A stretch of 11,400 nucleotides of DNA from Candidatus Poribacteria bacterium (GTDB lineage: Bacteria; Poribacteria; WGA-4E; WGA-3G): assembly GCA_009845505.1 (NCBI GenBank), contig VXZL01000389.1, positions 1 to 11,400 of the forward strand, written 5' to 3'. This document shows positions 1 to 11,400 of the stretch, one piece after another. Under the pieces are notes generated by a model, which had not been told where the DNA came from, searched no databases, and saw only the letters and a list, made by a program, of their open reading frames with translations. Each line of letters opens with the position of its first letter. Position 1 is the stretch's first letter. Position numbers and translations under genes: made by a program.

Positions 1-1
1 C

Positions 2-1687
2 TTTGATAAGAACGTGCCAATGACATGGGGCATCAATGCCGGACGTGGGATGGCGCGTTCACGAGAAGAAGCAATCTGGAACCCCGTCCCCTCCTCTTAC
101 GGCGGTAGAGCCAAATACCGAACAGCACACGTCGGAAGCCTCGTCGGATTAGAAGGGATCGCACCCTCCCGAAACTTAGAAGTTCTCCCTTATATTCTGC
201 CCGGAATCGCCCAGGTCAGTGACGACGACGCAAACCTCGAAACGACCCGCGAATTTAAACTCGGTTTTGACGCAAAATACGGTATCACTTCAAACCTCAC
301 CGCTGATATTACCTATAACACAGACTTTGCCCAAGTTGAAGCAGATGACGAACAGGTAAATTTAACCCGATTTAGCCTCTTCTTCCCCGAAAAACGTCCG
401 TTCTTTTTGGAAGGCGCAGGACTTTTCGATTTTGGAGTCCCGCGGACGAGTTTCCGCCGACCCCCACCGATGCTCCTTTTCTATAGTCGACGCATTGGAC
501 TTGCTGAAGGAAACGCCATTCCTATTATTTTCGGTGGAAAAACAACAGGTAAAATCGGATCTTACGGGGTTGGGTTTCTCAACGTCCTTACCGATGAATT
601 CCACGATGACATTACCGATGATGATCCTGTCAATGTACCCCGAACGAACTTTTCCGTGCTTCGACTCACAAAAGACATTGCCGCGGGTTCGCGGGTCGGA
701 GTAATTGGCGTCAATAAAGACGAATTCGGGGATTACAACCGCGCCGGCGGTCTCGACTTTGAATATCGACCCAGTGATCGTTTAAATGTACGGGGTATGT
801 GGGCATTGACTGCCGAACCCGGGACGTCCAGTATGTTTGGGCAAAACAACTCTTGGTATCTCGGTTCCCAATGGCAGAGCAATGTTTTTCGTGTAGAGGG
901 TTCATATACCGACATCGGCGAGGATTTCAATCCCGCCGTAGGATACGTCCGCCGTACCGGCATCCGTCATTTCCGAAGCGAGATGCGCTGGACACCAAGA
1001 CCCCAAAAATTCGGGGTCCGGCAGGTTTGGACAGGACCCGAGATGAATTATCTGCTCGATCACGACAACAAAGTGCAAGAATGGGATATCTCCTATCTCA
1101 ATTGGTTTGAGTTCAACACCGGTGACTATATCATGTTCAGGGGTAGGCGCAGTTTTGAGCGGTTGGACGAGATTTTCGATTTTCGGGACGGTGTAGAAAT
1201 TCCGATAGGCGGCTACTACGCTAACACGTACAGTGTCCGTCTCTCCAGTAATGATAGTCGAGTAATTGGTGGGACGCTTGATGTCGGTATTGAGGATTTC
1301 TACGAGGGTGAAGTTCGCAGAGCATCTATAGAAACCGTCCTTAAACCGAATGGAAATATCGCTATGCGGGCAGAATACCAATTTAATCAGATCGTTGACC
1401 TGCCGGTAACTTACTTTACCGACGGAGAACCTCATCCTGTTTATGTCAATCTTTTCCGAGGTAGACTCGACTATTCCTTTTCCACGGAACTCTTCGCAAA
1501 AGTCTTTGCACAATGGAATACGGATGCAGACGTTGTGTCTATGAACTTCCTGGTTAATTACATCTATCGTCCGGGAAGTGATTTCTACTTCGTTTTCAAT
1601 CAGACTTACGATACCGATGGCGCAACACAATCTACGCTATTAGACTCAACTGTTGTGGCAAAGATGACCTATTGGTGGAACCCATAG
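2..1687 (+). CDS. DUF5916 outer-membrane beta-barrel protein, C-terminal part (5' end outside window)
   Basis: The reading frame is open to the left edge (frame beginning at base 2), so the GTG at 14 is probably not the true start and the gene is truncated by the window. About 561 residues are visible. The region reading NPVPSSYGGRA, then the block from about base 295 to 435 (ADITYNTDFAQVEADD, then NLTRFSLFFPEKRPFFLEG), is the hallmark of the DUF5916 family, which usually carries an N-terminal CBM9-like carbohydrate-binding domain that would lie upstream. After it the protein alternates short polar and aromatic-rich strands (FRGRLDYSFS, KVFAQWNTDA, FYFVFNQTYD) and ends in MTYWWNP, as expected for an outer-membrane beta-barrel with an aromatic last strand. 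Its substrate is unknown; family members are often annotated as carbohydrate-binding or hydrolase-like outer-membrane proteins. A tonB-like gene lies about 300 bp downstream on the same strand but has its own promoter. Family assignment is strong; function is unproven. Confidence 0.85.
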   Translation, partial: FDKNVPMTWGINAGRGMARSREEAIWNPVPSSYGGRAKYRTAHVGSLVGLEGIAPSRNLEVLPYILPGIAQVSDDDANLETTREFKLGFDAKYGITSNLTADITYNTDFAQVEADDEQVNLTRFSLFFPEKRPFFLEGAGLFDFGVPRTSFRRPPPMLLFYSRRIGLAEGNAIPIIFGGKTTGKIGSYGVGFLNVLTDEFHDDITDDDPVNVPRTNFSVLRLTKDIAAGSRVGVIGVNKDEFGDYNRAGGLDFEYRPSDRLNVRGMWALTAEPGTSSMFGQNNSWYLGSQWQSNVFRVEGSYTDIGEDFNPAVGYVRRTGIRHFRSEMRWTPRPQKFGVRQVWTGPEMNYLLDHDNKVQEWDISYLNWFEFNTGDYIMFRGRRSFERLDEIFDFRDGVEIPIGGYYANTYSVRLSSNDSRVIGGTLDVGIEDFYEGEVRRASIETVLKPNGNIAMRAEYQFNQIVDLPVTYFTDGEPHPVYVNLFRGRLDYSFSTELFAKVFAQWNTDADVVSMNFLVNYIYRPGSDFYFVFNQTYDTDGATQSTLLDSTVVAKMTYWWNP

Positions 1688-1728
1688 GATCAGAAACCAA
1701 ATCCGTTGGATTATTGGACTCTAAAAAA

Positions 1729-1757
1729 TTGACAAAAAAAAAGAAATGTGGTACAAT
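1729..1757 (+). promoter_or_regulatory. Sigma-70-type promoter upstream of tonB
   Basis: TTGACA (1729-1734, perfect -35) is followed by a 17-bp spacer and TACAAT (1752-1757, one mismatch to TATAAT). TG at 1749-1750 makes it an extended -10 (TGGTACAAT). The expected start of transcription is near 1764. It points to the tonB-like gene and gives it a leader of about 230 nt. The -10 box lies inside the left arm of an 18-bp inverted repeat, so a protein bound there could occlude the promoter. The motif match is direct; activity is inferred. Confidence 0.75.
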
Positions 1758-1818
1758 TTGTAATTAAAGTATCTTTATACGCGAATAAAGCGTTTTTATA
1801 TACAAATTGTGCCACATT
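1745..1818. repeat. 18-bp inverted repeat straddling the tonB promoter start
   Basis: Left arm 1745-1762 (AATGTGGTACAATTTGTA) and right arm 1801-1818 (TACAAATTGTGCCACATT) are reverse complements with a single mismatch, separated by 38 bp. The left arm contains the -10 hexamer. Because transcription should start between the arms, both arms would not be in the same transcript, so a DNA-level role (paired operator sites or a facing promoter) or an insertion remnant is more likely than an RNA terminator. On the minus strand the left arm is followed by a T-rich run, so a terminator for leftward transcription is an alternative, but no leftward gene needs one here. Confidence 0.7.
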
Positions 1819-1981
1819 CTATAGAGGCTATTAAACCTTCTCTTAGCATTTGATGTCAAAAATAAGTACGTGCGATCATAAATGGTTTTTAGTTTCTTGA
1901 CGGACTCGTTTCAGTTAAATCTCTTAGAATCGGGTCCATATAAACAGGTTCCGAACCGAAATCATAGGTTCTTCTTTTTAT

Positions 1982-1987
1982 AGGAGG
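1982..1987 (+). promoter_or_regulatory. Shine-Dalgarno site of the tonB-like gene
   Basis: AGGAGG, a full anti-16S match, 7 nt before the ATG at 1995. It fixes the start and suggests strong translation. Confidence 0.85.
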
Positions 1988-1994
1988 AAGACAG

Positions 1995-2954
1995 ATGAGT
2001 AGCAGAACTTCCGGCATGCTTAGTGAGATGCAGCAACGTCGGGCAGAGCGCAAAAAACCGAAGCGTTTTGTTGCACTGAAAAAGGTTTCGCTGGATACCA
2101 GTCAACAGCAAGGTATTTCCACTGCGCAAGCAAACGTAGTGAAGCATCCGATCACGCAAAAGCACGTCGGGCGGAGTTCCACAGCGTTTTCAGTAGCAAT
2201 CGCATTTCACGTAATTATTGGGTTTGTTATTAGTGCTTTCTTTATCGCCGAGCAGATTGAAATGAATCAAGAGACGTTTGATATTAGCATCGTCACAGAA
2301 GAGCCAAAAACCAAGCGTCGACTCCGACGCAGAGAGACACCAAAGTTTGAAACAAAACCACAACAGCAGCAAGTTCTTATTCAGCGTCCGCTTGCGACCG
2401 CCACTTCACAATTGCCCTCAAGAGACGGATTCGTCATCCCGCAAGGCGCGGAAGCAACTGTTGACCTTTCAACACCTGGCGCGGATGAAGGTCCCAAAAT
2501 GATAGAGGTCGAGCGAAATTTCGCCCAACCCTCGCGGTCATTGGAACCAGAGGCAAAGACACAGGGCTTTGAAATTCAGCGTGAAGCACCATCACTGATT
2601 AACAAGCTTGATGTCGGTGACTCATTAGAAGCAGGCCCCGGACTGGGGAGTGTCGATTTCGAACCTGAACCTGGTGTTGTTCCACCAGCAAGGAAGTACA
2701 TTCCGGATCCGAAGGATTATTATCCAGATGCAGCAAAGAGAGCAGAGAAAGAAGGCAAGGTTATTCTGAAAGTAACTATCGACGAAAATGGTATTCCACG
2801 AGACATTGTAGCACTGACAAGCCTCGGGTTTGGATTTGAGGAAGCGGCAATTGAGATCTTAAAGAAGAGCACCTTTCGTCCCGCTACAAAAGGTGGAGAA
2901 CCGATCAGTCTGGAAGTCGAAATACCCGTTGATTTCAAGCTTAAGGATAACTAA
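1995..2954 (+). CDS. tonB: TonB-like energy transducer
   Basis: 319 residues. A basic cytoplasmic N-terminus (1-62, rich in Lys/Arg) precedes one hydrophobic segment at about 64-85 (AFSVAIAFHVIIGFVISAFF). A long periplasmic linker of low complexity rich in Pro, Gln, Glu and Arg follows (about 90-240), then a TonB C-terminal domain at 243-316: YYPDAAKRAEKEGKVILKV, then IDENG, and a closing FRPA...PVDFKL. This is the standard TonB order: membrane anchor, spanning linker, and a box that contacts TonB-dependent receptors. The cytoplasmic tail of about 60 residues is longer than in E. coli TonB. The start is fixed by AGGAGG at 1982-1987, 7 nt before ATG. No exbB or exbD lies in the window. The role is coupling proton motive force to outer-membrane transport; the partner receptor is unknown. 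Gram-negative TonB paralogues are common, so the symbol is generic. Confidence 0.9.
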   Translation: MSSRTSGMLSEMQQRRAERKKPKRFVALKKVSLDTSQQQGISTAQANVVKHPITQKHVGRSSTAFSVAIAFHVIIGFVISAFFIAEQIEMNQETFDISIVTEEPKTKRRLRRRETPKFETKPQQQQVLIQRPLATATSQLPSRDGFVIPQGAEATVDLSTPGADEGPKMIEVERNFAQPSRSLEPEAKTQGFEIQREAPSLINKLDVGDSLEAGPGLGSVDFEPEPGVVPPARKYIPDPKDYYPDAAKRAEKEGKVILKVTIDENGIPRDIVALTSLGFGFEEAAIEILKKSTFRPATKGGEPISLEVEIPVDFKLKDN

Positions 2955-3003
2955 GAATACCACTTACTGATGTAGCGTCTCCGTCCTTACTTCAGGACAG
3001 AAT

Positions 3004-3735
3004 TTACCTTATTTTCAGTAACCCCTTTGCTGCGAAATTCCGCACTAAATTGACAACAGATTGACGGGCTGTCTCAGCGATTTGCGTCTGTTCAAACGTC
3101 AGTGCTGCGATTTCCGCTTCCAATGCTTCTGCCTCTGACCCAGACATATTCTCAAAGAATCGATCGTGTACTGTAACGGGCGCGTTGTGCAACGCAACCG
3201 CTAAGGTCTGCTTGTCGAGTACTTTCAGGACGGTTTTAATCGCCTCGTTCTCCAATTCACCTAAACCCTCAAAGGTAAACAGTTGTTCAGAGACACTATT
3301 TACCATCTTGGGGTTTTTTTCTGCCAAAGTTTCCAACAACTGATTCTGTTCCGCTACATCCATGTAGGATAATAGCTTGGCAAGGTTTGTTGTGCCTTTC
3401 CCTAAGAAAGTGGTTTGCTGGAGTGTCTCCTTAATTTTAGCGATATGCTCATGCCATATTTGAGTCGCACGTTCAGCATCAACAACCTCTGTAGCAGTTA
3501 TCTGCTCAGCAATACTCACCTTCCTGTCGAAGGGTAACTGCGCGAAAAGTTTCCCGGCGTATGCAGCAAGAGCATTGCCGATGAGGTCACTCTCCAAGTG
3601 GGCACACATCACAAAAAACACAGCAGCATCGGTGTCGTCTACATTTTGGAACGCTGTCAAAACAACTTGTGGATGGGTCTCATCAAGCAAAACCACCAAT
3701 TCTTTTAGCGCAGCTTCATCTAAAAGCGGAGACAT
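3004..3735 (-). CDS. Stand-alone FliG-like protein (FliG middle + C-terminal domains)
   Basis: 243 residues from the ATG at 3735. A GTG at 3765 preceded by AAGGGGG at 6 nt would add 10 residues and overlap the purM end by 14 nt, and is a real alternative. FliG middle-domain features are THPQVV (20-25, the EHPQ motif region), the Gly-containing linker LGKGTTNLAKLL (111-122) and SYMD. The C-terminal part matches FliG_C: NPKMV (141-145), LFTFEGL (152-158), AIKTVLKVLD (165-174), LAVALHNAP (178-186), FFENMS (193-198) and a last helix VVNLVRNFAAKGLLKI. FliG is normally about 330-340 residues; the N domain that binds FliF is absent. In flagellar FliG this part forms the rotor face contacting the stator and FliM. 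Here it is the last gene of a purM-containing operon with no flagellar gene in sight. Most charged torque positions appear replaced, so a non-flagellar role is likely. What that role is cannot be read from the sequence. Confidence 0.75.
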   Translation of the reverse strand: MSPLLDEAALKELVVLLDETHPQVVLTAFQNVDDTDAAVFFVMCAHLESDLIGNALAAYAGKLFAQLPFDRKVSIAEQITATEVVDAERATQIWHEHIAKIKETLQQTTFLGKGTTNLAKLLSYMDVAEQNQLLETLAEKNPKMVNSVSEQLFTFEGLGELENEAIKTVLKVLDKQTLAVALHNAPVTVHDRFFENMSGSEAEALEAEIAALTFEQTQIAETARQSVVNLVRNFAAKGLLKIR

Positions 3736-3751
3736 CGCCTGTGCGTCTGTA

Positions 3752-4792
3752 TTAGGAAGTGACACCTCGTACCCCCTTTTCGCCTGCGACCACTTCACCG
3801 ATGAGGTAGGTAGACTCTCCAGATGCATTGAGAGACGATAGCGCAATATCGACATCATCTGGCGAAAGGACGACCACCATCCCAACTCCCATATTGAAAA
3901 CCCTATACATCTCTGCGTCTTCAACGTCCCCTTTTGCCTGTAAAAACGAAAAAATAGACGGAATCTTCCACGTCCCTTTTTGGATTTCGGCTACACAGTC
4001 ATCGGGTAGAATCCGCAGCACATTCGCCGGGAGCCCACCACCGGTGATATGCGCCAGTCCTTTAATCTGACATACCTCGCGGAGTGCCAACACAGATTTT
4101 ACATAACTCTTGTGGGACGCGAGGAGGGTGTCCCCAACCGTTTCTGAGAGTTCTGGTAGGTAGGTGTCAACGTCGTAGTTGCACCGTTCAAACAGAATAC
4201 GACGCACCAACGAAAAGCCGTTAGTATGTAAACCCGCCGAGCCTAACCCGATGAGCTTATCCCCGGGTGCAATTGTATCGCCAGTAATCACATCTTTTTT
4301 TTCTACTACACCGACGATCGTACCAACCAAATCGTATTCACCAACGGCGTAGAAGTCAGGGAGTTCCGCGATCTCACCACCGATTAGCGCGCATCCAATC
4401 TCCCGGCAACCCGATGCCAAACCGTCAATAACCTGCTCAATCACCGATGGCACCACTTTATTAATGCCGATATAATCAAGAAAGAAGAGCGGCTCAGCAC
4501 CCTGCACAACGATGTCGTTTCCACAATGTGCAACAATATCAAACCCAACGGTATCGTGTCGCGAGGCTTTAAACGCAACTTTTAATTTCGTACCGACACT
4601 ATCTGTACTGGAGACGAGAACAGGTTCGTCGCACGCTTTAAGTGCGAACAGCCCGCCAAAACTCCCAACATCACTGAGTACTTCGGGACGATAGGTCGTC
4701 TGAACCAGTCCTTTTAGCCGTTTTATCGCCTCGGCTTCGGCTTCAAATGAGACACCCGCATCGGCGTATGTCAACGGCTTTTTATCTGCCAT
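3752..4792 (-). CDS. purM: Phosphoribosylformylglycinamidine cyclo-ligase (AIR synthetase)
   Basis: 346 residues, the family's usual length. PurM converts FGAM and ATP to AIR, step 5 of de novo purine synthesis, in the cytoplasm. Visible signatures are YADAGV (9-14), VSSTDSVGTKLK (60-71), GNDIVVQGAEPLFFLDY (91-107), the ATP-site region ALIGGEIAELP (135-145), GEYDLVG (151-157), GLHTNGFSLVR (187-197), AHITGGGLPANVLR (247-260) and FNMGVGMV (299-306). GGEIAELP has Ile where most PurM proteins have Thr (GGETAEMP), and HCGND replaces the common VND context; the rest is canonical, so the enzyme is probably functional. The ATG overlaps the end of the upstream small membrane gene by 11 nt, indicating translational coupling, and a FliG-like gene follows within a few bases. 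Confidence 0.97.
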   Translation of the reverse strand: MADKKPLTYADAGVSFEAEAEAIKRLKGLVQTTYRPEVLSDVGSFGGLFALKACDEPVLVSSTDSVGTKLKVAFKASRHDTVGFDIVAHCGNDIVVQGAEPLFFLDYIGINKVVPSVIEQVIDGLASGCREIGCALIGGEIAELPDFYAVGEYDLVGTIVGVVEKKDVITGDTIAPGDKLIGLGSAGLHTNGFSLVRRILFERCNYDVDTYLPELSETVGDTLLASHKSYVKSVLALREVCQIKGLAHITGGGLPANVLRILPDDCVAEIQKGTWKIPSIFSFLQAKGDVEDAEMYRVFNMGVGMVVVLSPDDVDIALSSLNASGESTYLIGEVVAGEKGVRGVTS

Positions 4793-5090
4793 CTGATTTT
4801 TCTTGTTCCTTCATTAATTGTTTGCGCAGCGGTGAAACACTTTGTTTTCGCGGTCTCAATAGGCTAATGACCAATACAATGCCGCTAATAACCAACGCAA
4901 TGAGAACACCTGTATCCTCGGCTTCAGCCGGTGTCATACCGGGTCGTAATTTCCCAATTAGGGGCGGGAGAGCCCTGCTGAGAACCATACCGAGGATCGC
5001 ACATCCGAGCAAAGAGATGAGCGTATGCCGCCCTTGCGCTGTCCCTATCGGATTCGGTCTTTTCTGTTTACCACGTTGTCTATACTGCAT
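4782..5090 (-). CDS. Small two-helix membrane protein of unknown function
   Basis: 102 residues. A basic N-terminus (RQRGKQKRPN) is followed by hydrophobic helix 22-44 (HTLISLLGCAILGMVLSRAL) and helix 61-79 (GVLIALVISGIVLVISLL), and a basic, Lys-rich tail (80-102). By the positive-inside rule both ends would face the cytoplasm. I do not recognise a family. AGGAA lies about 5 nt before the ATG at 5090. The stop overlaps the purM start by 11 nt, and purF ends 75 nt upstream, so it sits between two purine enzymes in one transcript. The tight overlap with purM and the clean membrane pattern argue that it is real, but its link to purine synthesis may be only co-transcription. Confidence 0.75.
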   Translation of the reverse strand: MQYRQRGKQKRPNPIGTAQGRHTLISLLGCAILGMVLSRALPPLIGKLRPGMTPAEAEDTGVLIALVISGIVLVISLLRPRKQSVSPLRKQLMKEQEKSDGR

Positions 5091-5165
5091 AAAAGTTCCT
5101 CGTCGGGCAACACTAATCCAAACTTACACCGGACTTACGCACTTCAACCCACAATCCATAACTCA

Positions 5166-6599
5166 CTAATCTACAATCAAGGGCAGCTGCTCTGAAGGCT
5201 CGTCCACAAACGGGATTGGATATTCTCCATCAAAACAGGTGGTACAAAAGTCTTGAGATGCCTTCACCGAGTTGAGCATGCCATCAATGCTCAGATAACC
5301 GAGGCTGTCGGCACGAATATATTTACGGATCTGTTCAATCGTGTGTGAACTGGCAATCAACTCGCCACGTGTCGGCGTGTCCACACCATAGAAACATGAG
5401 AACTTATTCGGAGGGGATGCAATACGGAGGTGTACGGCGGTCGCGCCGCCTTGCCGAACGATTTTGATGAGTTTCCTACTATTTGTCCCACGCATAATTG
5501 AATCATCTACAAGCACGACCCGTTTGCCGCGGAGGACATCGCGTATCGGATTCAACTTTATCTTCACCATGAGCTCTCTGATATCCTGCGTAGGATTCAT
5601 AAAAGAACGTCCAACAAAGGTATTTCTTGACAATCCCAAATCGAAAGGAATACCAGACTCCTCAGCATAACCGAGGGCGGCAATCGTTGCGGAATCAGGA
5701 ACTGGGATAACGACATCCGCTTTGATGGGATGTTCACGGGCGAGCTGCCTGCCGAACTCACGACGCGTACTATTCACGCTCTGACCGAACATCATACCAT
5801 CGGGACGTGCCAGGTAGATATATTCAAAGATACACTGCGATAATTCCGGCTCTCTCCTACGAAAACGGAAGGATTCTACGCCGCGACGCGCAGAACGTAT
5901 AAATATCAACTCACCAGGTTCCACCTCACGGATCGGCTCCGCTTCAATCACATCAAGCGCACACGTTTCGGACGCAAGGACATAAGCATCATCAAGTTTA
6001 CCCAGCCAGAGCGGACGGAATCCGTGCGCATCGCGCGCACCTATGAGTGTATTCTTATCCATGCACACGAAGGAATAAGCCCCTTCAACACTCCGAAGTG
6101 CGTCAATAATTCTATTTTCCAAAACCTGTTTCCGAGAATGTGCTATAAGATGGAAAAAAACCTCGGTATCTAAACTTGTGCTGAAGATTGAACCCGCATT
6201 CTCCAGATGGTTCCGAATGTACGATGAGTTGACCAGATTGCCGTTATGACCAAGCGCGAGGGGACCCTGCTTGTAATTCCGAACCAGCGGCTGCGCGTTC
6301 TCCAGTGTACTTTCCCCCGCTGTGGAATATCGGTTGTGTCCAATAGCGATATGGCCATTGAGTTGCGCTAAAACCTCAGTCGTAAAGACAGAATGGACAA
6401 GACCCATGCCGTGGTGATACGTAAACTTTTCACCATTTGACGCGATAATCCCACTACTCTCTTGTCCCCGATGCTGCAGAGCACGTAACCCCAAATAGGT
6501 TAGCTCTACCGCTTTAGGGTGACCGAAGACACCGAAGACACCGCATTCGTCCTTTGGTTTATCATCATATTGCATGTTGGCGAGTAAAACCTCCAGCAT
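5166..6599 (-). CDS. purF: Amidophosphoribosyltransferase, Fe-S type
   Basis: 477 residues from the ATG at 6599; an in-frame ATG at 6575 would put the nucleophile at Cys11, close to the 11-residue propeptide of B. subtilis PurF. It makes phosphoribosylamine from PRPP and glutamine, the committed step of purine synthesis. The N-terminal Ntn glutaminase shows DECGVFGVFG (18-26, nucleophile C19 after propeptide removal), LQHRGQESSG (41-50), GHNRYSTAG (87-95) and GHNGNLVN (117-124). The C-terminal phosphoribosyltransferase shows PVPDSA (299-304), the PRPP loop VVLVDDSIMRGTNSR (361-375) and SPPNKFSCFYG. Four cysteines (C256, C402, C452, C455, the last two in FCTTCFDG) match the [4Fe-4S] ligands of the B. 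subtilis-type enzyme, implying oxygen sensitivity. No strong Shine-Dalgarno precedes either start. It lies 49 nt downstream of the membrane-protein gene, in the same operon. Confidence 0.97.
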   Translation of the reverse strand: MLEVLLANMQYDDKPKDECGVFGVFGHPKAVELTYLGLRALQHRGQESSGIIASNGEKFTYHHGMGLVHSVFTTEVLAQLNGHIAIGHNRYSTAGESTLENAQPLVRNYKQGPLALGHNGNLVNSSYIRNHLENAGSIFSTSLDTEVFFHLIAHSRKQVLENRIIDALRSVEGAYSFVCMDKNTLIGARDAHGFRPLWLGKLDDAYVLASETCALDVIEAEPIREVEPGELIFIRSARRGVESFRFRRREPELSQCIFEYIYLARPDGMMFGQSVNSTRREFGRQLAREHPIKADVVIPVPDSATIAALGYAEESGIPFDLGLSRNTFVGRSFMNPTQDIRELMVKIKLNPIRDVLRGKRVVLVDDSIMRGTNSRKLIKIVRQGGATAVHLRIASPPNKFSCFYGVDTPTRGELIASSHTIEQIRKYIRADSLGYLSIDGMLNSVKASQDFCTTCFDGEYPIPFVDEPSEQLPLIVD

Positions 6600-6648
6600 A
6601 CGCTTTTAGATCTTCGCAACCGTTCATGAAAAATAACCTTTCTAATAT

Positions 6649-7191
6649 TTATCCATGTTCCGCGCTGACTTCGGTATTTTCAGATGCTGCCAATCGGTAT
6701 CCGAATATCGCGCCGATAGGAACAGCAAGAATATACCAAATCTCGACCGGCAAACCCAGCGATACCCACCCGCGCATGGGTAATGAAATGACATACGCCA
6801 GTGCCTTAAGCAGCGGAAGGATCAACGCCAAAATCAGGTTCGGTCTACCAAATATCTCCCATGGAACGTTAAGCAGCGCAAGCAAACCGACGACAGCGGG
6901 CGGCCCCAAGAATGCACCTGAATAAAGCGGTTTTAAGGGGATACTAACACCGAATCTTTGGCTCACAAAGCGGATACCTTGGCTCGCTCCAATGATCACC
7001 GTTGCGTACCAGACACTCAAGGAAATGAGGAGCAGCAAACCGACCCAAAAGCCGTGGCGAATCCGATCCCCGAGTAGCACTTGCCAAATAAAATTCTCAA
7101 ACACCAATAGGCAGATCCAACCGCCTAATAGCCCAACAATACTCCCAGCAGCAATTTGCCCAAGGGTTAACGTGACACTACTTTTTTTCAT
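6649..7191 (-). CDS. Multi-pass membrane protein, first gene of the purF-purM operon
   Basis: 180 residues from the ATG at 7191. An upstream ATG-like start at 7251 lies in the -35 box of the promoter at 7223-7251 and would be outside the transcript, so the shorter form is chosen; GGAG sits just before this ATG. Hydrophobic stretches at about 9-31, 47-70, 89-108, 116-136 and 148-168 indicate four or five membrane helices. Short polar loops include RFVSQRFGVSIP and a charged tail ENTEVSAEHG. I do not recognise a family; it lacks obvious catalytic motifs. As the promoter-proximal gene of a purine operon it could be a transporter subunit or simply co-transcribed; nothing in the sequence decides this. 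Confidence 0.75.
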   Translation of the reverse strand: MKKSSVTLTLGQIAAGSIVGLLGGWICLLVFENFIWQVLLGDRIRHGFWVGLLLLISLSVWYATVIIGASQGIRFVSQRFGVSIPLKPLYSGAFLGPPAVVGLLALLNVPWEIFGRPNLILALILPLLKALAYVISLPMRGWVSLGLPVEIWYILAVPIGAIFGYRLAASENTEVSAEHG

Positions 7192-7222
7192 ACACTCCAG
7201 TCTCTCTCTTAAATTTAATTCT

Positions 7223-7251
7223 ATTGTACCATTATCCAACATAAATGTCAA
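7223..7251 (-). promoter_or_regulatory. Sigma-70-type promoter of the purine operon
   Basis: On the minus strand TTGACA (7251-7246, perfect) is followed by 17 bp and TACAAT (7228-7223), with TG one base before it giving the extended -10 TGGTACAAT. The expected start is near 7216, giving a leader of about 25 nt to the ATG at 7191. That is too short for a riboswitch, so no purine riboswitch is present here. The same nine-base -10 element occurs upstream of the tonB-like gene. Confidence 0.8.
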
Positions 7252-7367
7252 AAAAATCTAATCTTTCTTCTGTAGGAGAGAACTCCCAAAAACACCTCAT
7301 CCACTGTCAGTGTTCAAGTAATTGTGCGTCTTACACAATTGATCCTTACTTTACACTTAGGGACGGT

Positions 7368-7589
7368 TCAATCCGTCGCGCCCCAAGTCGAAAAAGGGCA
7401 TCGTTTGCTGGAGCAGAAAAGTGCCCAGAGGTCTCCATTTAAGGCGGTGGTTTGTCCAGGTAACAAGTTGAGATTGCCGCGTGCCCAGATCGTTTCTGGA
7501 GTTTCTGTTTTTAAATACCGCTCCAATCCTGCTGGATAATTCGTGTCTGTTCGTCTGATAACTTGAACGGGTTGCATCACTTCACTCAC
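7368..7589 (-). pseudogene. Decayed N-terminal fragment resembling DprA/Smf (SLOG) proteins
   Basis: 73 codons starting at a GTG (7589; ATG at 7577 also in frame). The stretch RRTDTNYPAGLERYL, then ETPETIWARGNLNLLP and ALFCSSKRCP, follows the order of DprA-like proteins: a YP..L motif, a P..I/L..RGN..LL motif and the start of the Rossmann/SLOG fold. An intact member would continue for 150-250 more residues, but here a stop follows at 7368 and no matching continuation is seen in the other frames. The insertion of about six residues (NGDLWA) between TTAL and ALFC also looks like decay. Family members bind single-stranded DNA for RecA loading or bind nucleotide ligands. Identification is by motif memory only, so this is tentative. 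Confidence 0.4.
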
Positions 7590-7664
7590 AAGGTTTCTTA
7601 CCTGTTATGGTAAGTATTTTAACAAAGCTCGGCAATTGGTGCAAGGATATAAGGTGCTAAGGCG

Positions 7665-7802
7665 AGGGCATTTAGTTTTAAAAATTCGCTTTATATGTGT
7701 ATATTTTCCGCTGTAGGAGCGAGCTGTGCTCGCGATATTTGAGAAAAAACGTCAACTTATCTAAACGAAAATCGAAATCAAAACCGAAAACTAAATAGCC
7801 CT
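7665..7802. repeat. Roughly 138-bp unit bounded by imperfect inverted repeats
   Basis: Left end AGGGCATTTAGTTTT (7665-7679) and right end AAAACTAAATAGCCCT (7787-7802) are reverse complements apart from one inserted base. The interior is AT-rich and non-coding, with a GC-rich REP-like hairpin close to the midpoint. The octamers GGTGCTAA (7653-7660) and GGTGATAA (7803-7810), one mismatch apart, flank it, though four bases separate the left one from the arm, so they are not a clean target duplication. It looks like a miniature non-autonomous element; no transposase is encoded. Confidence 0.5.
7712..7734 (+). repeat. REP-like palindrome (GTAG/GGAG head with GCGAGC-TGT-GCTCGC hairpin)
   Basis: TGTAGGAGCGAGCTGTGCTC followed by GCGA. 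The stem GCGAGC (7719-7724) pairs perfectly with GCTCGC (7728-7733) around a TGT loop, and a GTAGGAG head precedes it. This closely resembles Pseudomonas-type REP elements, which are moved by REP-associated tyrosine transposases. It stands out as GC-rich within AT-rich DNA. A transposase is not present in the window, and copy number cannot be judged from one copy. Confidence 0.6.
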
Positions 7803-7902
7803 GGTGATAACGTAAGCAGTTTTTAGCGGATTTATCGCCGCATCTACATCACTATACGCAGGAATATACGAGTATTGACTTGGCGTGGCGAGGGTAAACT
7901 TT

Positions 7903-8448
7903 CTATTCTGTTGGATAAGCAGAAAGCCGTCGATGCGCTTCAGGCGGTGCGCCGTTTCGGAGCCAAGCGATGGGTTGCTCTTCCGCCTTGTCAGGATTTA
8001 CCCAGATGATATTTCGGATTTCGCCAACCTGCTGGGAGGCGCGTACGAAAAGATGTCGGATAGTTTCATCAAGCGAGATGACGGTTTGATCCGTTGCAAG
8101 TGCTGCGTGGAGGAGATGAAAATCTTCCCGCAGTGCTTCAATATCTGTTTCTCTGGTTGCTGTTGTGTCGATTTTGTCGGACAACGCTGTATCTTGGGGA
8201 GGCGTGATGTAATCAAATCTCTTTCGGGCAATCATTGATTTCAACCATCTGGCTGCAAAATTCGATTGATGTGCGTTCCACTCCTCGGATAACTCGGGTG
8301 TCATCACAATGTGATGCGAGCATTCATCTCGAAAGGTTTCAAGAAATTCGGTACAGTTGATTGATACGGAGGCAGTCGCTCCTCTACCACCAGCAGCACG
8401 GGCAACCGAGGCGTTCACAACAAGCCGCTTTAAACCCCTTGAACGCAT
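7903..8448 (-). CDS. PIN-like nuclease partner of the upstream AAA ATPase
   Basis: 181 residues from the ATG at 8448. GAAGGG lies about 7 nt upstream, so this start is preferred to a TTG at 8463 that would overlap the ATPase end. The first strand LKRLVVNASVARAAGG (6-21) is the PIN-domain beta-1 with the usual metal-binding Asp replaced by Asn12. Further PIN-like features are the acidic TPELSEEW helix, a late REDFHLLHAALATD helix and TVISLDE (the T.D motif of the fold). Other conserved-looking stretches are HQSNFAARWLKSMIARKR and IIWVNP. PIN domains are Mg-dependent RNases and common toxins. The gene starts one base after the ATPase stop, so translation is tightly coupled and the two probably act together. 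Loss of the first Asp could abolish or alter cleavage. Fold assignment is by motif, and whether the family normally has Asp here is from memory. Confidence 0.65.
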   Translation of the reverse strand: MRSRGLKRLVVNASVARAAGGRGATASVSINCTEFLETFRDECSHHIVMTPELSEEWNAHQSNFAARWLKSMIARKRFDYITPPQDTALSDKIDTTATRETDIEALREDFHLLHAALATDQTVISLDETIRHLFVRASQQVGEIRNIIWVNPDKAEEQPIAWLRNGAPPEAHRRLSAYPTE

Positions 8449-8449
8449 G

Positions 8450-9745
8450 CTATGTCCCTTCAATGAAACGCGACTGCGCTGCTTTTATATAACGACTTTG
8501 CGCTTTGAGGTCGACATCATCAAAATCTTCAGGCCACTCTCCATAAGCCCCCGCTTCGTCTAAGTCTGCACTGTTAACTTCTGTTACGCCATCTTCACGC
8601 CGTGTGAACCAATGTAATTTGACTAACTCCGGTGAGAGGTCCCCTTCTGCAACAAGCGTTTGAACCCCCAAAAGCAGGAGTGAACTATGCGTTTCAACAA
8701 CGACGCGTACCCCCCGTTTCGCTGCGTCCGCCAGCACTTGCGCTAACGCAACTTGGGCGCGAGGGTGCAGGTGTAGTTCAGGTTGTTCAATATAAACTAA
8801 CCGACCTGGCTCTGCCGCAACTAATGCCACTATAACCGGTAAGAGTTGGGACACACCAATCCCTACATCGGCAATGTTAACCATGTCGGTCTCGCCAGTC
8901 CTGCCGTGCGGAAGACGACCGACTTGAACTTCAATACTAACATCGCCAACTTTTTGGGTGCTGACTTTTCCTGTTAATCTAAGAATATGAAGGGCATCGC
9001 CTAATGTCTTTAGACGTTCATCTTTTGCATCTTGCCATTTATGAATGACGCTCGCAGCGTAGTTTTCAAATGTCCCAGGATATTGGGGGCCGGTGCTGCT
9101 TAGTTTGTAGGTACGTTCTGGATTTCCGCGTAATCCGGGGAGGTGAATAGTGTTGAGAATACTGGGCTCAAGTGGATAGGTAACATCGTAAAGGCCTCTA
9201 CCGTCTGGAGCTTCAAAACCCAAAAAACAGCGGAAACGTTTCACTCCCTTAAAATCCCGGCTCATCGGATATTGGTCAATCCGCGATATAGCTTCTTCAA
9301 GCGGCATTTCAGGATATAAAGTAAGATGAAGCGAGGGAGATGATGGGTCAACCGTTGATTTTATTTCTCTCGTCATTTCGACAATTTCAATCCCATCCGA
9401 TCCTTTTCTGAAAGTCGTCTTCACTGAGTAAAAAACATCATATACACGATTCTCAATCCGAACCTGAAAGCGATCTGTCTTCTTTCCATCGGTTAATTTG
9501 GACAAAAACTGCGACATCTCAGTAAATTGAACATTCGGTCCATCAATCAATAGCGGTCCGGGATCATAGGGAACCTCCAAGGTCTGCTTCAACATCAGGA
9601 GCGGTTGCATGATGCTTGATTTCCCAGAACTGTTCGCACCGGCAAGGAGGGTCAACGGATAGATGTCAATCTCACATTCCTCCGCTATTGACTTGAAACC
9701 CTTCACAGTTATTTTGGTGATGCCTTCAAGTTTTTCTTCCGACAT
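8450..9745 (-). CDS. AAA family (SMC/OLD-like, DUF3696-type) ATPase
   Basis: 431 residues. The N-terminus ITKITVKGFKSI (9-20) is the typical first strand of RecF/SMC/OLD-like ATPases. Walker A is GANSSGKS (36-43), an ABC-like signature VGIGVSQ lies at 294-300, Walker B LVYIEQPELHLHP at 316-328 (Glu320 the likely catalytic base) and the switch VVVETHSSLL at 348-357. The C-terminal EWPEDFDD (403-410) resembles the DUF3696 tail. There is no TOPRIM domain, so this is not a full OLD nuclease. Such ATPases often sense phage or DNA damage and control an effector; here the effector candidate is the PIN-like gene that begins one base after this stop. GGGAG lies about 10 nt before the ATG. Upstream, 55 nt away, is a split AlbA_2 regulator and a 12-bp tandem repeat. 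The ATPase class is secure; the cellular role is inferred. Confidence 0.9.
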   Translation of the reverse strand: MSEEKLEGITKITVKGFKSIAEECEIDIYPLTLLAGANSSGKSSIMQPLLMLKQTLEVPYDPGPLLIDGPNVQFTEMSQFLSKLTDGKKTDRFQVRIENRVYDVFYSVKTTFRKGSDGIEIVEMTREIKSTVDPSSPSLHLTLYPEMPLEEAISRIDQYPMSRDFKGVKRFRCFLGFEAPDGRGLYDVTYPLEPSILNTIHLPGLRGNPERTYKLSSTGPQYPGTFENYAASVIHKWQDAKDERLKTLGDALHILRLTGKVSTQKVGDVSIEVQVGRLPHGRTGETDMVNIADVGIGVSQLLPVIVALVAAEPGRLVYIEQPELHLHPRAQVALAQVLADAAKRGVRVVVETHSSLLLLGVQTLVAEGDLSPELVKLHWFTRREDGVTEVNSADLDEAGAYGEWPEDFDDVDLKAQSRYIKAAQSRFIEGT

Positions 9746-9766
9746 CTGAAACTTACTCCCTATAAT

Positions 9767-9812
9767 AATCGTTCACTTAATCGCTTACCTAATCGCTTAC
9801 CTAATCGCTTAC
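9767..9812. repeat. 12-bp tandem repeat, about four copies
   Basis: Units on the plus strand: AATCGTTCACTT (9767-9778, degenerate), AATCGCTTACCT (9779-9790), AATCGCTTACCT (9791-9802) and AATCGCTTAC (9803-9812, partial). Read on the minus strand each unit is GTAAGCGATTAG, that is Val-Ser-Asp-stop in the frame of the upstream regulator gene, so the last codons and stop of that gene are the first repeat copy. The array fills the spacer before the ATPase gene and could be a protein-binding array or a slippage product. Confidence 0.8.
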
Positions 9813-10676
9813 TTTTTGTACGTACTTGGTTCCTCTTCCCTTGCCTATTACATGTAATAAACCTTTATCAGTCATGTTCTTTAGTTCCTCATAGGCAACC
9901 CGGCGCGAGACATTGTTGAGCTCTACGTATTCTTTTGTCGCAATTTGTCCGTGTCTTTGTACATAGAAAAAAGCGTTCCTTTGACGTTCGTTCAACTGCT
10001 CTGAAATATCATCGATTTCTATAAAGGTCGTCTCTTGAATCGGGGAATCAAAGATGATTTTCGTCTCAAGTGGGTGAAATACATAACGCGGTGCTTTGTT
10101 CCCCCATTCCCGACATAACCGCTGCATCATTCTGATACCAGCACCATACCGTTCAATGAAACCAACATCAAACATGAATTGACTCAAAGTCGGGTTTACC
10201 GGTTTGTGAGTCGGTTCATCTGGACTAACACCTTCTGGAAAAGTGCCGGGGTTAATCACCTCAACACGGTTGTCAAATATGAAAACGCGGACATCCGCGG
10301 TTTCTTGATAGTCTCGATGAATCAAGGCATTGATAATCGCCTCTCGCAGGGCATTGAGTGGGTATTCAAACTTATCGTCTCGTTGGAAACTCCTTGAGGT
10401 CCGAAAACTGAGAAGGCGAATGTTTTTTCTTATGAATTCCTCGGCAGTATTGACGTTCTCCCATAAGGTTTCAAAGCAGTCAATGCGATCAATGACTGGA
10501 TGGATAACAGATGTTCCTTTGAATCTGACAACCCGTAATTGGGCATTGTGGAAAAATCTTCTTTGGGGGTGTTTACTGAAAAAGAGAAGACCCGCGTGGG
10601 TTGGTGTTCCGTCATCGCCGACACCATTAATGTTCTTCAAAAATGCTGCCATGCTCATACCTTGCGGTTTAGACAC
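9801..10676 (-). CDS. GHKL-ATPase / winged-helix part of a frameshifted AlbA_2 regulator
   Basis: 291 codons from a GTG at 10676, but this is most likely the 3' part of one 460-codon gene whose 5' part is at 10700-11182. After an AFLKNINGVG...HAGLLFF stretch typical of the family, an ATPase domain (HATPase_c_4) shows YPLNALREAIINALIHRDY (105-123, the N-box), VFIFDNRVEVINPG (131-144) and IERYGAGI (174-181). The C-terminus (229-288) is a winged helix: LNERQRNAFFYVQ, then VSRRVAYEELKNMTDKGLL and GKGRGTKYV. Proteins of this AlbA_2-HATPase-wHTH design (COG2865) are predicted transcriptional regulators. It precedes an ATPase-nuclease pair by 55 nt and may control it. The stop codon lies in a 12-bp tandem repeat. 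Independent translation from the GTG is possible, but no Shine-Dalgarno site is evident. Confidence 0.75.
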   Translation of the reverse strand: MSKPQGMSMAAFLKNINGVGDDGTPTHAGLLFFSKHPQRRFFHNAQLRVVRFKGTSVIHPVIDRIDCFETLWENVNTAEEFIRKNIRLLSFRTSRSFQRDDKFEYPLNALREAIINALIHRDYQETADVRVFIFDNRVEVINPGTFPEGVSPDEPTHKPVNPTLSQFMFDVGFIERYGAGIRMMQRLCREWGNKAPRYVFHPLETKIIFDSPIQETTFIEIDDISEQLNERQRNAFFYVQRHGQIATKEYVELNNVSRRVAYEELKNMTDKGLLHVIGKGRGTKYVQKVSD

Positions 10677-10699
10677 ATTTCGGATTGTTTCTCGACGGG

Positions 10700-10720
10700 T
10701 CAGATACCATTCAACTTTTT
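10700..10720 (-). other. Frameshift site in the AlbA_2 regulator (A5 tract)
   Basis: On the minus strand the codons GAG AAA AAG TTG lead to the stop. Either one more A, or a ribosomal -1 slip on AAA AAG, gives GAG AAA AAG GTT GAA TGG TAT CTG and fuses the two parts precisely. The heptamer is G AAA AAG, close to but not the classic A AAA AAG. No strong stimulatory hairpin or upstream Shine-Dalgarno is apparent, so a deletion or a sequencing error in the homopolymer is the simpler reading. Confidence 0.7.
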
Positions 10721-11182
10721 CTCATCTATATCATCCATGCCAGCGCGTGTAACCAAGAGTCCATCCCAAGTTTGTCCTGTGGCGTTGAGGTGCATCTGCG
10801 CAATCTCTTGTGGGGACATGACGCGGTTGCTATTCCCTACTCTTTTATAGCACCGTCCTTTAACAGAAACGGGTTTTATCGAGCATTCTGCAACACGTAT
10901 CCACAGCACCGATTTCCCTTCCACGTCAACCACTCCAATTTCTATATCCACCCGTGGCTCAGTCGCTTGGGAAATCCGGTTTGACCAGTTTCTTAGCGTC
11001 TCTTTACCGATAGTAATTCCCCTAATTTCTCCGCTATCAGACACACCTATAAGAACAGTGCCACCATCAGTATTTGCAAATGCAGCAGCGGTCTCAATGA
11101 CTTCTTGATCGAAGTTTTCTTTGAATTCGGTCGTGGCGTTTTCGCCTTGAGCAATGTGTTGTTTGAGATCAGTGATTTCCAT
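10700..11182 (-). CDS. AlbA_2 (Schlafen-like) DNA-binding part of a frameshifted regulator
   Basis: 160 codons. The AlbA_2 domain spans about 10-130: ENATTEFKENF (14-24), AAAFANTDGGTVLIGVSDSGEIRG in two overlapping motifs (FANTDGG 35-41, LIGVSD 44-49) and YKRVGNSNRVMSPQEI (112-127, the R.G..N.V.....I pattern). AlbA_2 domains occur in predicted transcription factors and related Schlafen-group proteins. The frame ends at a stop at 10700-10702 soon after residue 150, where related proteins continue. Reading in the next frame from the A5 tract (10716-10720) gives VEWYLTRRETIRNVSKPQG and joins the GHKL part without a gap. The start at 11182 lacks a clear Shine-Dalgarno; an extended -10 promoter lies 64 bp upstream. 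Together the two parts make one 460-residue protein if the frame is restored. Confidence 0.8.
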   Translation of the reverse strand: MEITDLKQHIAQGENATTEFKENFDQEVIETAAAFANTDGGTVLIGVSDSGEIRGITIGKETLRNWSNRISQATEPRVDIEIGVVDVEGKSVLWIRVAECSIKPVSVKGRCYKRVGNSNRVMSPQEIAQMHLNATGQTWDGLLVTRAGMDDIDEKKLNGI

Positions 11183-11245
11183 ACATAACTTTTAAGGTTT
11201 GATTGTCTTGTCTTTATAGGCTGTTTAGAATTGCCTTTGCATACA

Positions 11246-11274
11246 ATTTTAGCACAAAGTTAGCATACGCGCAA
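11246..11274 (-). promoter_or_regulatory. Promoter of the AlbA_2 regulator cassette
   Basis: On the minus strand TTGCGC (11274-11269) is followed by 17 bp and TAAAAT (11251-11246), with TG one base upstream of the -10 (TGCTAAAAT). The expected start is near 11239, giving a leader of about 57 nt. The -35 is poorer than in the other two promoters of the window, but the extended -10 compensates. It would drive the regulator and possibly the ATPase and PIN genes, since no clear separate promoter is seen in front of the ATPase. Confidence 0.55.
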
Positions 11275-11400
11275 CCGTATTGCTAGGGCATCCAGTTCTC
11301 CGAAATCGAGACTTCTTCTGCACAAGCCCAAGCATTTATGCGAATCAACGGTATGAATGCTGTATGGCATTCCCCGGGATCCGTCTACAGTGTTCTATAA
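11275..11400. other. Right-edge sequence without an identifiable gene
   Basis: No Shine-Dalgarno-led ORF is evident. A minus-strand frame ending near 11287 reads AWACAEEVSISENWMP before its stop and could be the tail of something, but it is broken by a stop about 31 codons upstream, and I do not recognise it. Confidence 0.3.

Follow-up and report, generated by a model that had tools for sequence, protein, structure and literature searches.

What is a protein with the fold of the flagellar rotor component FliG doing directly behind a purine-synthesis gene? The question is raised by an 11,400-nucleotide (nt) stretch of DNA from Candidatus Poribacteria bacterium (assembly GCA_009845505.1, contig VXZL01000389.1, positions 1 to 11,400; hereafter the window), a member of a phylum known mainly from sponges. 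FliG is known as a part of the flagellar motor, and its N-terminal domain binds FliF. The short FliG-like gene of the window encodes the middle and C-terminal domains of FliG without the N domain, and we conclude with high confidence that its product is a FliG-derived protein exapted away from motility. Searches of the lineage turned up no gene for the flagellar rotor, for flagellar export or for MotB, the short gene is linked to purM, and it is under purifying selection, so that a role in motility is very probably excluded. An earlier reading, made from the sequence alone, had proposed an exapted FliG fold with a non-motility role, and these three lines of evidence support it well.

The gene is real and is coded on the minus strand; plus-strand frame 1 over 3004-3735 is full of stops. 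The sequence-only reading had placed the FliG-like open reading frame (ORF) at 3004..3735 without naming a strand. The frame is there, and its likely start is GTG 3765 rather than ATG 3735, because AAAAGGGGG sits just 5' of this GTG and a GTG or TTG is kept at the equivalent place in 25/25 loci (L089-L113), as well as in L130. From this start the gene overlaps the purM stop by 14 nt.

The protein is a descendant of FliG. Pfam FliG_C (PF01706) matched it with an E-value of 1.4e-22 and 80.4 bits, against a curated cut-off of 23.3, and FliG sequences in the PDB matched it from 1.8e-16. Alignment of a profile of 22 short forms to one of 18 FliGs using hhalign gave 99.95% (E 7.3e-38) over FliG profile columns 118-338. 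The FliF-binding N domain is absent from the window protein, the hhalign alignment being limited to these columns; a FliG_N match of 0.12 at residues 59-139 is below cut-off and away from the N terminus. Pfam FliG_M (PF14841) gave no match to the window protein at E <= 1, with MgtE_N (1.1e-6) covering that part, and is above cut-off in the relatives L042 and L043 (distant; 4.2e-13 in the latter). The NCBIfam equivalog TIGR00207 scored 74.1 bits in the window protein, under its cut-off of 226.7, and 130.9 in L043. Unlike MgtE (N domain PF03448), the window protein has its long match to FliG; no CBS or channel Pfam match was obtained, and hydrophobicity analysis gave no hydrophobic segment.

An AlphaFold2 (AF2) model built from 22 sequences was nearly all helical, with a mean predicted local distance difference test score of 86.5 and a predicted template modelling score (pTM) of 0.58. 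When the model was compared with 988 aligned chains, rows 1-16 were FliG or FliG-complex entries by title and rows 17-18 were FliF-FliG complexes; the best domain fits were 1qc7_B (1.6 Å over 89 residues) and the MotAB-bound FliG 8ucs_H (1.9 Å over 88). Model and profile-profile comparison both place the FliG middle and C-terminal fold in the window protein, as had been claimed from the sequence, and the profile and structure searches proposed at that time returned FliG.

Flagellar genes were surveyed in 60 genomes (the window's own and relatives), 36 of which belong to the window's genus. FliM, FliF, FlhA, MotB_plug and FliMN_C were detected in 0/36 genus genomes; MotA, whose model also matches ExbB/TolQ, was not searched. 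The same models matched 14 (FliM), 13 (FliF), 14 (FlhA), 14 (MotB_plug) and 14 (FliMN_C) of the 60 genomes, all in other families, and therefore work in this phylum. Across the window's family FliM was found in 0/58 genomes, compared with 14/82 phylum genomes of at least 70% completeness, and FliG_C was found in 55/58, with a single match each. The three family genomes without FliG_C (G003, G006 and G066) are also without a purM match, so the locus itself is missing there. The genome search for fliF, fliM and FliN-type partners suggested by the sequence-only reading thus came out as absence in all 36 genus genomes, with no full flagellar set accompanying the short gene.

The neighbours of the gene are purM and purF, not flagellar genes, as had been noted from the sequence, with a small membrane-protein ORF between the two. 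On the minus strand the order is promoter-like site, membrane protein, purF, membrane protein, purM and FliG-like gene; neither of the two membrane proteins has a family above cut-off in Pfam or NCBIfam. To follow the linkage, 42 named loci were taken from a contig search of named genomes, all 42 titled Poribacteria. In 41/42, purM immediately precedes the gene on its own strand, which bears out the proposed purM-FliG synteny; the contig of the 42nd stops inside the FliG-like gene. The complete block of membrane protein, purF, membrane protein, purM and FliG-like gene is shared by the window's genus, the remainder of its family and G038, which belongs to another family; G051, of a distant family, has purF, a small ORF, purM, the FliG-like gene and purH. 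In total, the gene is linked to purM in f1, f3, f4 and f6 and to purF in f8, five families of the phylum. The promoter-like site upstream of the first gene matches 11-12 of 12 consensus positions in 22/22 loci, with 17-nt spacing in 21, and single-base shuffles reached the same score in 0-3/100 per locus (22 loci). No terminator-like site was seen directly 3' of the FliG-like gene.

The coding sequence is constrained. The median ratio of non-synonymous to synonymous substitution rates (dN/dS) of the short form was 0.12 (150 unsaturated pairs of 435, from 30 sequences), compared with 0.077 for purM (227/435 pairs), and such purifying selection indicates a protein in use. No stop within the match was found in 34/34 genus genomes holding the gene (36 searched).

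The 25 short forms make a single clade in a 62-row tree, set apart on one side of a branch (100/99), and their branching order is consistent with the kinship labels. Full-length poribacterial FliGs fall in the other half in 15/18 cases, and flagellate relatives have a full-length FliG alongside a distinct short form. The short clade may derive from a second flagellar FliG lineage, since three divergent full-length FliGs (two from f3, one from G052) adjoin it together with the paralogues of L044 and L045 (90/83); the deeper forks of the tree are weak (43/87).

The named relatives of the window protein are Candidatus Poribacteria. Among the best 120 of 267 protein matches, four carried a source name: three were hypothetical proteins of Poribacteria and one, P0121, was labelled FliG. 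A second search with the short form of G051, from which the best 120 of 194 matches were taken, gave four short clusters that closely resemble the query, of which one is named Poribacteria and one bears a FliG label; the other 116 were FliGs of many phyla, 112 of them at least 310 amino acids (aa) long and four of less than 300 aa on contigs of no more than 2,625 bases. As these G051-query matches come without gene context, a purM-linked form may exist elsewhere. A contig search with the single G051 protein found no relative among 128 stretches, and weak tblastn matches in L146, L148, L150, L070 and L080 were treated as chance.

To compare residues, the window protein and its best 120 of 267 matches (in all 121 short forms, P0001-P0121) were aligned with 112 FliGs, those of at least 310 residues among the 116 of P0126-P0241. 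K264, D288 and R297 of E. coli FliG are taken here to be charged stator-facing residues, in addition to R281 and D289. The latter two are MotA contacts according to PMC6445934 and PMC4030992. Four of these five charged positions are replaced in the short forms: position 264 is K/R in 112/112 FliGs and H in 118/121 short forms, 281 is R/K in 112/112 and S in 113/121, 288 is E/D in 110/112 and A or T in 113/121, and 297 is R/K in 110/112 and Q in 118/121. The acid at 289 (E/D in 112/112 FliGs) is kept, as E in 117/121. The distant f6 forms have R/K at 264 in 3/4, D at 288 in 3/4 and E at 289 in 4/4, with the charge at 281 reversed to D/E and S at 297 in 4/4.

Five FliG signatures had been read from the sequence in FliG order, and four of them (GKG, LFTF, ALHNAP and FFENMS) are placed right. 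The fifth, THPQVV, was misassigned as EHPQ, presumably the motif of the FliM-binding middle domain: it aligns about 10 residues earlier, with an ADPQ segment, and the EHPQ site itself reads VDDT in the window protein. E and Q of this site are present in 112/112 FliGs, while short forms mostly have V-D-D-S/N/T there and the f6 forms E-D-x-L. LFTF keeps its second F, and GKG (loop G) its second G, in 121/121 short forms. ALHNAP and FFENMS are correctly placed, yet nearby motor-relevant charged residues are replaced. Conservation within the short form peaks in the block of residues 231-250 (mean 0.946; 221-240 in the 243-aa numbering), which consists largely of residues unusual in FliG and presumably lies near the FliG stator-facing loop.

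The short form therefore resembles FliG (TIGR00207; PF14841 and PF01706) in its middle and C-terminal armadillo-type domains in order, its loop G and LFTF hinge and the fit of its C-terminal domain to 1qc7, and is unlike it in the missing N domain, the replaced EHPQ site and stator charges, the purine operon, and a genus from which the five other flagellar families are absent. FliG1 of Borrelia burgdorferi is likewise a second FliG copy beside a structural one; it serves torque generation according to PMC7225975, whereas the window protein occurs where no flagellar genes were found. PMC9927559 was dropped as a precedent, Lysobacter being said there to have lost fliG.

The favoured explanation of these observations runs as follows. 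On tree and distribution, an ancestor within Poribacteria would have carried the short form beside a full-length FliG, and the short form would have been inherited vertically and outlived the flagellum in the window's family. In a less secure step, the protein would be co-produced with PurF and PurM from one promoter and would serve as a soluble adaptor of armadillo type, binding a new partner through its rebuilt C-terminal face (around 231-250). This partner would most likely be encoded in the same operon, as PurF, PurM or either of the small membrane proteins, and the adaptor would organise or tether a purine-synthesis complex. That the protein is such a putative adaptor is our leading guess from gene linkage, held tentatively; the explanation as worded in full, a FliG derivative out of the flagellum and a purine adaptor together, stands at about an even chance. 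In an unlikely elaboration, the short FliG would stack via its armadillo domains, C-ring-like, into a ring or filament holding PurF, PurM and PurH, a bacterial counterpart of the purinosome, which the two small membrane proteins would perhaps hold at the membrane.

Several observations weigh against this explanation. In G049, of the same family as G038, a pair of ORFs on the opposite strand lies between purF and the adjoining purM and FliG-like genes. In a third family (G037, G040 and G042) purM and the FliG-like gene stay together, and purF either is coded on the opposite strand or falls beyond the stretch; because of these positions of purF, a single transcript is not general. In G053 the gene comes after purF and an ORF of 159 aa, without purM, which argues against a strict PurM partner. 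Both purF and purM are kept without the FliG-like gene in G036, G039, G041, G044 and G046 (two lineages), a further family has purH directly behind purM (L074, L077), and G048 retains a stub of about 70 residues only. Promoter-like sites across the whole region number 3, against 5.2 in shuffles, operon membership can be explained by expression alone, and the domain arrangement of the model is uncertain because the pTM is just 0.58.

One alternative, possible if somewhat doubtful, is a passenger in a well-expressed operon: the protein would have a new non-motility function unrelated to purines, for instance with envelope or cell-pole proteins, and would lie behind purM for its expression only. 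The persistence of purF and purM without the gene in five genomes of two lineages, purH behind purM elsewhere, the two uncharacterised membrane proteins of the block and other short FliG copies located elsewhere (L044, L045, L047, L048) all fit it, whereas the linkage across five phylum families does not. It is decidedly unlikely that the protein is the rotor or clutch of some other ion-driven, non-flagellar motor (ExbB/TolQ type) and that its C-terminal domain touches a relative of MotA. This reading would account for the retained stator-binding fold (8ucs_H), for the TonB-type gene converging on the FliG-like gene, and for the further FliG_C protein encoded beside motAB in the flagellate G048 and G049; set against this, four of the five stator-facing charges are replaced, the TonB-type gene runs on the opposite strand and was not recognised next to the short gene in other families (L037-L043), and MotB_plug is in 0/36 genus genomes, MotA/ExbB itself not having been searched.

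A flagellar FliG under loss, or an assembly or annotation artefact, is very improbable. The stub in G048 and the absence of the gene from some lineages could be read that way, and the dN/dS, the frame free of internal stops and the coexistence with a distinct full-length FliG in flagellate relatives contradict it. It is scarcely credible that the gene is an ordinary flagellar FliG whose partners were missed: the window's assembly is 86.5% complete and in 691 contigs, but the single-contig genomes G005, G010, G022 and G029 hold the gene without any of the five flagellar families. A motility role, a decaying gene and an artefact were thus discarded on flagellar absence, open frame and dN/dS, and the exapted FliG derivative is retained.

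Features of the window, and of relatives (prefixed by locus or genome), referred to in the text
Feature	Position	Strand	Remark
Short FliG-like gene (FliG middle and C-terminal domains, N domain absent)	3004..3765	-	253 aa from GTG 3765; 243 aa with ATG 3735
FFENMS, at place of FliG FRNMS motif	3142..3159	-	sequence, alignment
purM (AIR synthetase)	3752..4792	-	Pfam AIRS_C 2.4e-28, AIRS 4.3e-23
Small predicted membrane protein between purF and purM	4782..5090	-	102 aa; hydrophobicity
purF (amidophosphoribosyltransferase)	5166..6599	-	GATase_7 2.4e-19; Pribosyltran 0.011, under cut-off
Predicted multi-pass membrane protein upstream of purF	6649..7191	-	180 aa if ATG 7191 is the start; hydrophobicity
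Promoter-like site TTGACA-17-TACAAT upstream of the block's first gene	7223..7251	-	11/12; consensus match only
TonB-type gene	1995-2954	+	
AlbA_2 and HATPase_c_4 pieces	9801-11182	-	separate ORFs of 160 aa and 291 aa
Short FliG paralogues, other Poribacteria families	L044:8166-8870; L045:7917-8594; L047:6608-7432; L048:7677-8495	-; -; +; -	
Cyclic-nucleotide/FliG_C genes and neighbours	L062:3025-4236, 2201-3013, 1434-2237; L066:8393-8731, 7566-8375, 6763-7599; L061:126-1478	- where strand given	
FlhA-N-only/FliM-like ORF contigs of family f3	G037:C34, G042:C505, G040:C403; G037:C5, G040:C279, G040:C329		

Among the papers listed, nothing describing a FliG-like protein beside purM was found, judged by titles and abstract openings in a partial library. 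If the favoured explanation is true, rotor parts are reusable outside motility, as shown by a FliG derivative that is spread over several families of one phylum, is tied to purine genes and has outlived the flagellum, and two conserved uncharacterised membrane proteins gain a context. Labels such as 'flagellar motor switch protein FliG', as carried by P0121, can then mislead predictions of motility where there is no flagellum.

Several families of the phylum keep the two kinds of membrane protein of the block next to purF, even where the FliG-like gene is absent. On the other side of the short gene, a match to the TonB-type gene lies behind it on the other strand in 40/42 named loci (not in L127 and L128); its opposite strand rules it out as an operon partner. 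The short paralogues of other Poribacteria families are FliG_C proteins of 225-274 aa, like the window protein, located away from purine or recognised flagellar genes in the stretches read. Those of L044 and L045 stand beside the short clade, as described above, and those of L047 and L048 in the other half of the tree.

Flagellate relatives encode a further protein, of 403 aa in G048 and 450 aa in G052, that combines a cyclic-nucleotide-binding domain with FliG_C. Its gene lies directly before the MotA and MotB genes in G048, and a FliG_C piece at a contig edge is placed likewise in G049; the protein reads like a putative cyclic-nucleotide-controlled FliG decoy or brake on the stator. In family f3, ORFs holding only the N-terminal part of FlhA (about 230-260 aa) were observed, as were weakly FliM-like ones of 251 aa; G037 and G040 of this family also have two fliF-fliG-fliM-flhA sets. 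At the far end of the window, the AlbA_2 and HATPase_c_4 pieces are perhaps one broken or frameshifted gene, a single 516-aa ORF of the relative L031 (1501-3051) clustering with both.
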